From: Pempheris klunzingeri
Lineage: Eukaryota; Chordata; Actinopteri; Acropomatiformes; Pempheridae
DNA length: 64,000 nucleotides
Assembly (NCBI RefSeq): GCF_042242105.1
Contig: NC_092023.1
Location: forward strand, 15,884,433 to 15,948,432
Direction of reading: 5' to 3'
Shown: in pieces, positions 24,685-30,600 of the stretch
Layout of the letters: the number at the start of each line of letters is the position of its first letter
Numbering within the stretch: position 1 is the stretch's first letter
Notes under the pieces: generated by a model
The model's database searches: none
Seen by the model: the letters and a program-made list of their open reading frames with translations, nothing else
Told to the model about the DNA's origin: nothing
Translations under genes and position numbers: made by a program

Positions 24685-27600
24685 ATGAAGTTTGAGACCA
24701 TCCTGGAGGAAATCGACGGGTTTGGGCCTTTCCAAATCATCATCATCGTCCTGATGTGCACCCCTCGAATAGTCCTGCCCTGTCACTTCTTACTGAACAA
24801 CTTCATCGCCGCTTCACCTCCTCACCGCTGTGACATCAGCAGCCTGGATGATGGAGGACTCTTTGAAAATTTAACACTGGGGCAGAGACTGACCGCCAGC
24901 ATACCTGTACAAGAAGATGGGGAGCCAAAGTCATGTGAAATGTTTGCGGAGCCTCAGTTGCAGCTCTTAGCCAACAGCTCCGACAGCGCCGACCTGCCAA
25001 CAGTTCAGTGTCAGAGTGGATGGGTTTATGATAACTCCACGTTTACTTCCACCCTGGCAACAGAGGTACAATACCTGTTATACCTATTAAACATTGGTTG
25101 TAGCTCAAAGATTTGTACAGTATACTGAAAGAGTTTTTAAATCAACCTTCTTCATATTAGATCAACTTAACAACAGCACACATAAATATCTTAATTTATA
25201 TTTTATAGCATGATATATTGTTAAAGGGTATCTGGTATTTTTAAACCTGGGCCCTATTTTTACATAGTCTGGTGTTTAAATGATCAATAGGTCCTAAGGT
25301 TTTGGAATCGGTCCAGTAGATCGCCTCAGCCATGAAACTGGCTGCAACTGCACCTGATCAAATTACGTCCACCAAAAGTATTTGTTTATGCCACTGACAG
25401 GCTCAGGTTGTTATTCTAAGTGTCTGACAACATAATGGAAAGGATCCCTACAGAGACAGACCTCTGTGTTAAAGAGTGATATACCTTTTGTTTAATCAGA
25501 AACAGCCGTTATCACGTATCACTCTCTTCAAAGACAGCAGACTCCACTGACAAAAAACAGTGATTTTTACCTTGAAGAAAATGGGAATTCGAGTGATTTT
25601 TGTGTTTTAAAGGGTTAGTTCAGACCAAAGTCAAACAATAACCTATCGTGGCAGCAGTGGACCACCAACTTCAGTATTCTGTTAGGTAAAATGACGATGT
25701 TTTTGTGGAGTGGAGTCTGCTGTCTTTAAAGAGAGCGAAATAAAGGATATTTCTGCTTAAACAAAAAAGATCTTTGTTTTTTATTGAGTCTTCTATTAGT
25801 CTTCTATTTTGAAACCAGTAACGTGATAATAGTTCATAAGCAACTGCCTGTTTCACAACTCCATTCTGTAAATTATTCCATTTTCACAATTCCTAATAAA
25901 ACATTTTATTTTCTCTCAAAAGGTAGGTTCTTTCACTGAGGAACATAACATAACATATTTTTTACGATTGCCTCTACGTTTCCCCCAAAAAGTTTGATTC
26001 GGTATTGTTGGTTAAATATAACAGGTACAATTCAGCTGATTCTCTGCAAACCACAGCGACTGTTGTGTTGTGTTGTTGTGTTTATGGTGCTACTATATAT
26101 CGGAGAAAACAGGCGCTTAGATAAATGATCTAATTACCTTTTCTCTATGATTTGCCTTTTTAGTGGGACCTCGTCTGTGACAGAAAAAGCCTGACAAAGA
26201 CGACCAGCACAATCTTCTTTTTTGGAGTGATGATGGGGGCCATAGCTTTTGGATACCTCTGCGATAGGTATGTGTATAAAACGTGTGTCTCCGGCATGCT
26301 GCATCATGGTGATTCTAATTTTAATTAGTTCAAGTATCAATCAAAATAACTCTTTGATTACAATACAATATGCTCAGTACATAATATAGTGCTATAGTAA
26401 TATAGAAACTCAGCTGTCGAGTGTTGAAAAAAAATCAACTAATGATATCTGTGATGGCTATCTTGAAAGACATTTGAAATCAATATGTTTTGAGTAAATT
26501 TTCCTATTTTTTTGCTCATTAGACTTTAGTAAAATCTCTTTTTTTATGCTTTACAAGAGTCTTCACTTGACAGTAAAATTATGTCACAAATTATACCGTC
26601 TTAAATGGAAGTCCCATTCTTATTTCCAGGTATGGCAGGAGAAACACTCTTCTGGCTTCGTACATCATGGCGATCGTGTTTGGCTTCTCCAGCACGTTTG
26701 CAAACTCCTATGTTCTGTTTGCAGTGCTGAGATTTCTCACCGGGTTCGGTCTGACAGGAATCAGCATCACCTCAATAGTTCTCAGTAAGCTAACAAGTTT
26801 ATAGCCATATCTACGGTGGCCGGGAGGTGCAAAACAATTTTACAATACGAGAAACACTTTTACAAAGCTGGAGACAATTTTACATTTTAGAAAACATTTT
26901 TACAAATCAGAAAACAAAATTACATTGCCATAACACATTTACAAGTCCTGAGACAAATTTACATTTGAGAAAACAAATTTACAAGAGACGAAACACTTTT
27001 ACAAACGCCGAGACAAATTTACAAGTAACTTTTTCAACCGGAAAGGGAATGTACCGCGTTAATCGGCTTATATGTTCGCCACAAAACGGGCAAAAGACCG
27101 CTTGACTGCCGTCCATCGTGTTGGTACATTCCCTTTCCGGTTGAAAAAGTTACTTGCGGCCGAAACAAATTTACAAGTAACTTTTTCAACCGGAAAGGGA
27201 ATGTACCAACTGTCGAGTAGAACCGGAAGTGATAAGGAGTTCATGGCGACCCACGATGGACGGCAGTCAAGCGGTCTTTTGCCCGTTTTGTGGCGAACAT
27301 ATAAGCCGATTAACGCGGTACATTCCCTTTCCGGTTGAAAAAGTTACTTGTAAATTTGTTTCGGCCACTTGTAAAAGTGTTTCACGTCTTGTAAATTTGT
27401 CTCGGCGTTTGTAAAAGTGTTTCACGTCTTGTGTTTCACATTTTCTCAAATGTAAATTTGTCTCAGTACTTGTAAATGTGTTATGGCAATGTAATTTTGT
27501 TTTCTGATTTGTAAAAATGTTTTCTAAAATGTAAATTTGTCTCCAGCTTTGTAAAAGTGTTTCTTGTATTGTAAAATTGTTTTGCACCTCCCGGCCACCG

Positions 27601-30600
27601 TACATATCGCCTTCATATGTCATTTGTTGTGTCACAGCCTGTTTCCTCCAAATGGCTGAAAAAGTTTTTTTTTTTTTTTAATCAAACAAGCATGTCTAAT
27701 CTGATGATTGTCATCCTCCCCACCTTGCAGGCATCGAGTGGGTCGACACAGGTCGTAGATCGTTTATCGGTGTGATTGGCAGCCTGGCCTGGTCTGTGGG
27801 GAACATGCTGCTGGCTGGGTTTGCCTTCCTGGTAAATGACTGGCGGACACTGATCATGACTGTTACAGCCCCACTAGGATTTGCAGTTTTGACCTGGTGG
27901 TAAGTGAAAGTGAATTCATATGTTATTGGTTTCCACAATATTAAGAAAAATTTACATTTCAGCATGAGTTCAAGTGCTTCTAAACATATTAATAATATAT
28001 AAGCACATGTAGTAGAGACAGATGATACCTTGTTGTTGTTTATTTAGTTTATTTAATAATCTATATTGTCGTATTTTTTCATATATCACATATTTAAAGA
28101 ATCATTTCATTTGTTTTTTAAAACAGCTACAAATACAGAATCTTTTAGAAGTTTTGGAAATGTTTCATCCTAATTACATTGCTCATGATAACTGCAGGTG
28201 GATTCCTGAATCTGCTCGATGGCTGTTAGCAAATGGCAAAGTAGAAAGGGCCCAGTTTTACCTTGACAGGTGTGCTAAGTTCAACAAAAGACCAAAGCTG
28301 TCATCTAAATTAAAACTGGAGGTAAGTTTCATGTTTAAAGCTAATATGTATATGTTTTTTATTTGTTTATATGATATATTATATGATTATGTGATTATAT
28401 AAGAAGGTTCCAGGTTCGAATCTCCTGGCCGGCAGGTTTGCAGTTTGAGCATTGAACCTTTCTGTGTAGAGTTTGCATGTTCTCCCAGTGTTTGCGTGGG
28501 TTCTCTCCTGGTACTCAGGCTTCCTCCCACGGTCCAAAGACATGCAGCTTAATTGATCACTCAATGGTTGTCTCTCTCTATGTGTTGGCCCTGTGATTGG
28601 CTGGCAACCAGTCCAGGGTGTGTAGGAACAAATAACTTCATAGCCAGTGACCAGTAACTCGTTCAATGTTCTCATGTAAGAAGCTTGACTTGAGAAAATG
28701 CGAACCTGTCCCTGAACATCACTCCTCTGCCTCTGTATAGACACTCTCCAGCATAGAGATCCGGGAAAAGTCACAGAAGAGCTTCACTTACCTCCACCTA
28801 ATCAAGACCCCGAAGATGAGACAGTTAACTCTACTGTCTGGGATTGTGTGGTGGGTGTCACCCTGAAAAATCCCATGAGACATAAAAATATATTTAAATT
28901 GCCTCTCTGCAATGCTACCAAAATTATGGTAATTCCATTTAAAATACTTATATTTTAAGTTAGAATATCTGGTTTAATCTCCGTCAGTAGAATACATAGA
29001 TATACCGTAGATATATGGAGGGGGACACAAGAATAAACAATGATTTGTTGTGTGTTGTACTCTGCAGGTACGGAGTCGCCTCCACATATTATGGAATCAG
29101 CTTGAACATCAGTGGATTTGGTTTGAACATGTACCTCACACACTTCATCTATGCCGCCATTGAAGTTCCTGCCAAGCTGATGATCTATTGTCTTCTGAAC
29201 ATCATTGGGCGGAGGAAGTGCCAAGCAGGCACGCTGCTACTGACAGGAGTCTGCATCGCCTTAAACATGTTCATTCCAAAAGGTTGGGAGGCACATCAGA
29301 CATCCATTCTGCTACACGTCCCAGAAATGATTTGAAGTCACGCAACGGTCGATTCCTGCTTCACTTTGTGTGCGTTAACTGTGAACTGGCAAAACAAAAT
29401 CAACGCAATCAGCGCACTCCTTTGGTTTAAGCTATTTTTTGTGCAGATGGAAGAATTAAAAAGCAGATTTTTACATGTTTTACATATTTTTCGCATATTT
29501 TTTAAACAGGACAACAGACCTGTGCCAGGACACATAATATTTCCTTAAGTACCACAGCATCTACAGTATTGCATCCCTGCAACAACACAATAGTGATTTT
29601 GAACTATAGTGTGGAACTACACATGGTCATCAGTCCATCACCAGACTTTGTAAACACTTTTCTTTCTTCAGTGGAAGCAGGACATGAGGCATAACATCCA
29701 AATTACTCACATCCTGAGTTCTATATTAACTAGTTAATAATATATGATAATAATATATTAATGAGATACCAAGTTTTTGTTGTGTTGGACTTAATGTCAC
29801 AGACAGTATTCAGTTTTTTAAGCCACTGATTTATATTTTGCGTGTCTCTTGATTTTTCATATGTGATATTTGCACATTCTGTCATAATTTATGAAGTGAC
29901 CGTAGCTGTAAAAGAGTTTGTATGCTCTACCTGTCTGCCTCAAGTTAAATGAATGTTTTCACACCCATCTTATGTGCATTACGTAATTACACTGTACTTG
30001 TTCTTTGTAGGTCTGTGGCATCTGCGGGCCGTTGTTGCCATTCTTGGAAAAGGCCTATCAGAGGCTTCCTTCACAACTATCTTCCTCTACACAACAGAGC
30101 TTTACCCCACAGTCATCAGGTCAGTTACTGCCATACAGCTGTGTTAAGCTGTGACAGAGACAGGGCCTTATATTGCTAACATAGTATTTCACCCTCCAGT
30201 TGCTCAGGCTATTTGCCCTACTCGACTTTTAGATGAATTTGTACAGGTAAAATATCATCATAACATTATATCAAAAGGAGAAATGACCCAAACTGTGTGA
30301 GCACAAGCTGGAGAAAGACGTGACTCGCCTCTAAATTAATACGGCTCTTCTAATTTAGGGTTTAGATCAGATGGTTAAAGGTCAAATCTTCTTTCTGTTT
30401 TTCTGTTTAGTTTTTAATTTCATAGGTAGAAACTGATCCTGTGTTGTGCTGTGTACGTCACTTCCTCAGTTAAGTTCACCAGTTATTACCAGTTAGCACT
30501 AATATTTCCACTATTTTTTTGTTGCAATTAATCCTTTTTGTCCACTTTTTTTGCACTGTTACACTGTTTTGGTCTAATAACGACTATACAATTCACTGCA

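Follow-up and report, generated by a model that had tools for sequence, protein, structure and literature searches.

This locus raises the question of what kind of sequence forms the long palindrome in an intron of a transporter-like gene, and of how that palindrome came to have its nested form. Comparison of sequence within the window, by which we mean the whole 64,000-nucleotide stretch of DNA that was analysed, confirmed a palindrome of 791 bp at 26812-27602. The first-pass annotation had placed it at 26814-27600; the palindrome is there, and its ends had to be moved, as the bordering TA is terminal sequence of the element itself. The rest of that description of the palindrome stood: the arms are almost perfectly complementary (97% over 170 nt for the outer pair, 26804-26973/27441-27610, which includes a few flanking bases, and 99% over 114 nt for the inner pair, 27007-27120/27252-27365), and the 131-nt spacer between them (27121-27251) holds a second inverted repeat (27120-27156/27174-27210, 37 nt at 100%, with a 17-nt loop). 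One block is present four times in alternating orientations, at 34 nt where 32 bp had been given, and the degenerate short units of which the arms were said to be built are 20-bp tandem units (also scored as 40 bp) in both arms. The features are as follows.

26806-26811, unstranded: left target-site duplication CATATC, from flank comparison
26812-27602, unstranded: probable non-autonomous IS3EU-type element in nested palindromic form, 791 bp, TACGGTGGCC...GGCCACCGTA
27603-27608, unstranded: right target-site duplication CATATC, from flank comparison
26812-27120, plus strand: left arm, from inverted repeats
27252-27602, minus strand: right arm, from inverted repeats
26831-27025, plus strand: degenerate 20-bp tandem units of the left arm, which may be sites where transposition proteins bind
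27346-27583, minus strand: degenerate 20-bp tandem units of the right arm, from tandem-repeat analysis
27022-27055, plus strand: block B, copy 1, 34 bp, from repeat comparison
27123-27156, minus strand: block B, copy 2, inverted, from repeat comparison
27174-27207, plus strand: block B, copy 3, from repeat comparison
27317-27350, minus strand: block B, copy 4, inverted, from repeat comparison
27157-27173, unstranded: 17-nt centre, whose orientation relative to block P varies between nested copies
27208-27251, plus strand: block P, 5' of the start codon, confined to a single half in each of the 10 nested-type copies examined
27252-27316, plus strand: block X, start of the zinc-ribbon frame with ATG at 27256, matching part of the terminal repeat of the long copy
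27056-27120, minus strand: block X, inverted copy, in the half without P

The intron, as read from the sequence, spans 26785-27730 (946 bp), of which 149 bp would be left once the insertion and one of the duplications were removed; the element begins 27 nt past the upstream exon and stops 128 nt short of the next, again by our reading. When the exons on either side are joined, their translation matches SLC22 family transporters, with SLC22A6 as the best solved relative and with domain matches to Sugar_tr and MFS_1. The element is most likely a passenger of the intron, harmless by default. RNA from the intron could form a long hairpin, as had been proposed, since folding of the 791-nt strand as RNA predicts -588.5 kcal/mol (z -52 relative to 20 dinucleotide shuffles with a mean of -181.8 kcal/mol and a standard deviation of 7.8).

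Many relatives of this element are dispersed in the host genome. The whole element gave at least 133 matches, both orientations counted, with 40 scored of 172 candidates, and its terminal 18-mer occurred with up to two mismatches at 158 forward and 155 reverse places, as against 13 (8 + 5) for the reversed control. By its end matches the family comprises about 160 copies, which bears out the suggestion of a mobile foldback element present many times. The comparisons below draw on 32 complete copies, in which both ends were recognised within 1,500 bp and from which duplicates were removed; this sample is biased, as eight matched the window copy best and others come from top protein hits or first contigs. 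The complete copies are 307-830 bp long, and they have the properties of MITEs, being short and numerous, with terminal repeats and no transposase gene. Two of them on C16, about 27 kb apart (L008 and L042), are both nested, have their left flank in common and both carry ACAAAG as the duplication; they may well be a single insertion that was later segmentally duplicated. Elsewhere, a 5,000-N assembly gap starts at position 329 of L060 (C8:2033500-2043000), within block B of a family copy, as though assembly had failed at the palindrome, and in L066 (C9:12771920-12775419) a family copy reaches N 104 bp from its end.

The ends of the complete copies bear directly on how the element was inserted. 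All 32 start with TAC and finish with TA, and 26 are flanked by identical 6-mers, which is the case for only 3 of 992 control pairs taken between different elements; flank identity at 4, 5, 7 or 8 bp occurs in none. Among the six copies without an identical 6-mer, three match at five of the six positions and the remaining three at four, two and one. The duplications have G or C at position 1 in 22 of the 32 copies and at position 6 in 26, and A or T is commonest between. Because the identical 6-mer lies outside the TA, the TA is terminal sequence, and the flanking TA previously taken as an insertion signature gives way to a 6-bp duplication, here CATATC. A model with TA as the target was rejected on these grounds, and the case illustrates that a bordering TA may be mistaken for a target duplication.

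These features point to a class. According to PMC10045372, TA..TA termini are invariable in IS3EU families and 6-bp duplications are usual, and the ends of fungal IS3EU elements are given as TAYGG..CCRTA in PMC12730594. TA..TA termini are found in 32/32 complete copies and identical 6-bp duplications in 26/32; the ends TACGG..CCGTA, which agree with the form stated for fungal IS3EU, are those of the window copy and of the majority end, and some copies deviate, such as L046 (TACAG) and L010 (CTGTA). The sole candidate for an IS3EU transposase is an rva_4 fragment with two stops in one long copy, and we take the rva_4 domain to be tied to IS3EU transposases. We consider it very probable that this dispersed family consists of non-autonomous DNA transposons of the IS3EU type. 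The statement that the element matches nothing that could be named therefore does not hold: it fits the IS3EU description, and the family is a further member of a known, if little-known, kind. Among the papers listed by a literature search there was no report of an IS3EU miniature family in fish, which leaves room both for a report elsewhere and for an entry in Repbase.

Other classes account for parts of this picture. A foldback element of Tc1/mariner type, or another that targets TA, would explain the TA at both ends of every complete copy, but the TA is not the target duplication, given the identical 6-mers outside it in 26/32, and the long copy carries an integrase-core fragment; we regard such an origin as very improbable. 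Still less credible, and close to negligible, is a local inverted duplication in the intron without transposition: we found no point in its support, and the same architecture is found elsewhere in the genome, where the flanks differ and 6-bp duplications are present. Dada elements also make 6-bp duplications. The same is true of Polintons (PMC10045372), so another superfamily with duplications of this length has to be weighed, but the TA..TA termini fit IS3EU/GingerRoot instead, with which the rva_4 fragment is not in conflict, and we think assignment to Polinton or Dada improbable. ISL2EU, our first guess, was rejected, as the AT target duplication and the ends usually starting with GG that are described for it (PMC4482050) do not occur here. 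For Galileo of D. willistoni, in the P superfamily, 7- or 8-bp duplications are given in the part of PMC4168063 that concerns them; flanks identical at either length were found in 0/32 copies.

A longer relative with the same kind of termini, as had been anticipated, lies at C4:24313944-24317594 on the minus strand (3,651 bp). This long copy was reached from an end without a short partner. It has GATGAC on both sides, a perfect 6-bp duplication, and its right end, GGCCAGTGTA, is worn from the family's GGCCACCGTA. Its terminal repeats of about 424 bp are 91% identical over a 432-column alignment and contain the arm, B, P and X, with a further 37 bp on the left side. An element of this kind seems to have given rise to the short copies by internal deletion. 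In the left repeat begins a frame with a zinc-ribbon pattern, interrupted by one stop, with weak, below cut-off matches to double zinc ribbon and followed, in our own reading of the sequence, by further exon-like pieces. Two such pieces searched as protein gave three matches from five candidates, all at the same locus. A HECT-type gene as the identity of the zinc-ribbon protein was rejected, as the scanned pieces contained no such domain and a literature search gave no support. In the right repeat, on the opposite strand, a 104-aa open frame runs from a zinc-ribbon start into a match to the integrase core rva_4 (PF24764), which extends past the end of the frame across two stops. The match is above the cut-off, with 34.4 bits across the two stops and 32.2 bits for the stop-free part; over 48 aa, the stop-free part shares 69% identity with a different rva_4 copy of the same genome. 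The fragment comprises about 54 codons, is decayed and was found in one family copy only.

The interior of the long copy, searched as DNA, matched itself, one weak match in the same locus and otherwise its 44-bp edge sequence, a common repeat with at least 39 genome matches (40 scored of 53 candidates). This repeat lies at about 1290-1333 of L062, equivalent to position 2143 of the long copy, and a separate stretch starting TTAACCCTCTAAGCGCC at position 2200 looks like a TTAA-inserting element. DNA further on presumably resembles part of a piggyBac-type element; the domain scan gave no family match for it. There are four other rva_4 places in the genome. Two decayed loci on different chromosomes, L083/L089/L090 (C8:27012377-27021631) and L084/L087/L088 (C9:14282238-14291624), appear to share flanks and are possibly copies of one longer element or the product of a duplication; over about 9 kb each, neither a zinc-ribbon pattern nor terminal repeats that pair convincingly were seen. 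Further rva_4 loci lie at C1:21042322 and C1:28789018.

No intact transposase with family termini was found among the genome copies examined. Six candidates for autonomous copies (L011, L014, L031, L036, L064 and L065) were rejected because the second end was absent in the stretch read, the family sequence breaking off abruptly; L016 has a worn second end, and L061 and L063, in which each end is present, belong to the short copies. A 1,748-aa open frame at C8:2033675 was likewise rejected, being a run of 5,000 N within a copy. Lacking a transposase gene, the short copies would have depended on a transposase supplied from elsewhere; such a protein may have bound the ends, perhaps at the 20-bp units, after which the element would have been cut out and inserted with a 6-bp stagger.

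How might the nested form have arisen? Ten of the 32 complete copies have a simple form, B>P>X><B, nine have the nested form, including the window copy when read in reverse, and two have the form B>X><B; the remaining 11 are single arrangements, among them L004. Two X blocks are present in 12/32 copies. The arrangement at L049 (C4:25211320-25214421), B>P>X*>B>X><B, departs from the nested form in that its two X blocks point the same way. At the junction of the simple form the left repeat, after X, is joined to the right repeat at B, with GGT common to both. We infer that in a long element, whose repeats of about 424 bp take in the region preceding a gene together with its first codons, the middle was deleted at this 3-bp microhomology, which would have given the simple form, arm-B-P-X-B'-arm'.

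Judged from the sequences, the nested form consists of two halves of a short copy in inverted orientation, with a block of 42 or 44 nt missing from one half. In all nine nested copies one half can be aligned with the inverse of the other at 91-98% identity, gaps excluded; with L004, which has an extra block and halves that align, not cleanly, over only 264 positions, ten nested-type copies were examined. Block P lies in exactly one half in all ten; the copies were turned to put P on the left, so its side is uninformative. P is lost at a 42-nt junction in six (L001, L002, L003, L004, L006 and L007) and at a 44-nt junction in four (L005, L008, L032 and L042), and the 42-nt junction is also seen in L046 and L056, two simple copies that have no P. 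The two junctions led us to reject a single loss of P in one nested founder, and together with the P-less simple copies they indicate that more than one event took part. The 17-nt centre has one orientation relative to P in 7/10 copies and the other in 3/10. In a second step, two inverted simple-form halves, one without P, would have been joined around the 17-nt centre. This could have happened by copy-back of one half or by recombination of two copies in opposite orientation; the nested form would then have spread by transposition. Recombination between opposite simple elements, one with and one without P, would suit the common arms that simple copies have in both orientations and the presence of P in exactly one half of all ten copies, and L046 and L056 show that parents of both kinds were possible. 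However, the halves abut at an asymmetric 17-nt centre between perfect 37-bp repeats, as snap-back would leave, and the P-less simple copies could themselves derive from nested ones. We put recombination at slightly less than an even chance relative to copy-back. Hairpin-mediated foldback inversions have been described in yeast (PMC7467729).

Homogenisation between the arms was considered as a source of their near-perfect pairing. Over the outer 150 bp, median identity is 0.973 within an element and 0.9635 between elements, and the element's own opposite arm is the closest in 2/32 copies, with one tie. As an arm is not clearly more similar to its partner within the element than to the arms of other copies, homogenisation is unsupported, and the pairing points to youth rather than arm exchange. 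The ends differ from the majority by a mean of 2.1% over 60 bp in 61 of the 64 ends, the other three having been dropped as too different, probably through indels. Selection on the zinc-ribbon frame of the short copies is not clear either: variants fall 8, 8 and 31 by codon position, a bias largely due to one shared A/G variant, and the distinct events in 44 copies (25 nonsynonymous, 15 synonymous and two stop) stand against expected fractions of 0.70, 0.26 and 0.03.

We speculate that the 20-bp units may be binding sites for transposition proteins. A further idea, which we consider unlikely, is that the long terminal repeats serve as a shared expression cassette, each end supplying upstream sequence and a zinc-ribbon first exon; two converging genes, the transposase included, would then start with the same zinc-ribbon module, and the miniatures would keep the cassette and could make a truncated zinc-ribbon protein that binds the ends and restrains the transposon. 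If true, this would be a simple route for miniature copies to regulate their parent. The family shows plausible steps from a gene-carrying transposon to a gene-less miniature and on to a nested palindrome that is still mobile.

Compared with known systems, the family shares with IS3EU/GingerRoot the TA..TA termini, the TACGG..CCGTA ends and the 6-bp duplications, and its long copy likewise has an integrase-core fragment and two frames on opposite strands. It differs in that the short fish copies have no transposase gene and no intact autonomous copy was found, and in that the long fish copy has a zinc-ribbon frame, no alpha-kinase that we could see and terminal repeats of about 424 bp; in fungal IS3EU elements that carry TET/JBP genes, an alpha-kinase is found opposite the transposase (PMC12730594). 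With Galileo and Foldback-like elements of Drosophila it has in common long inverted repeats, tandem repeats in some copies, coding sequence in the terminal repeats and strong structural variation from copy to copy (PMC4168063, on Galileo). Galileo of D. willistoni has 7- or 8-bp duplications; the ends are different as well, and the fish family has an rva_4-type fragment. MITEs of other superfamilies, such as Angel of zebrafish, are, like the present family, short, gene-less, numerous and hairpin-forming; the present family differs from them in termini, target duplication and nested inverted halves.
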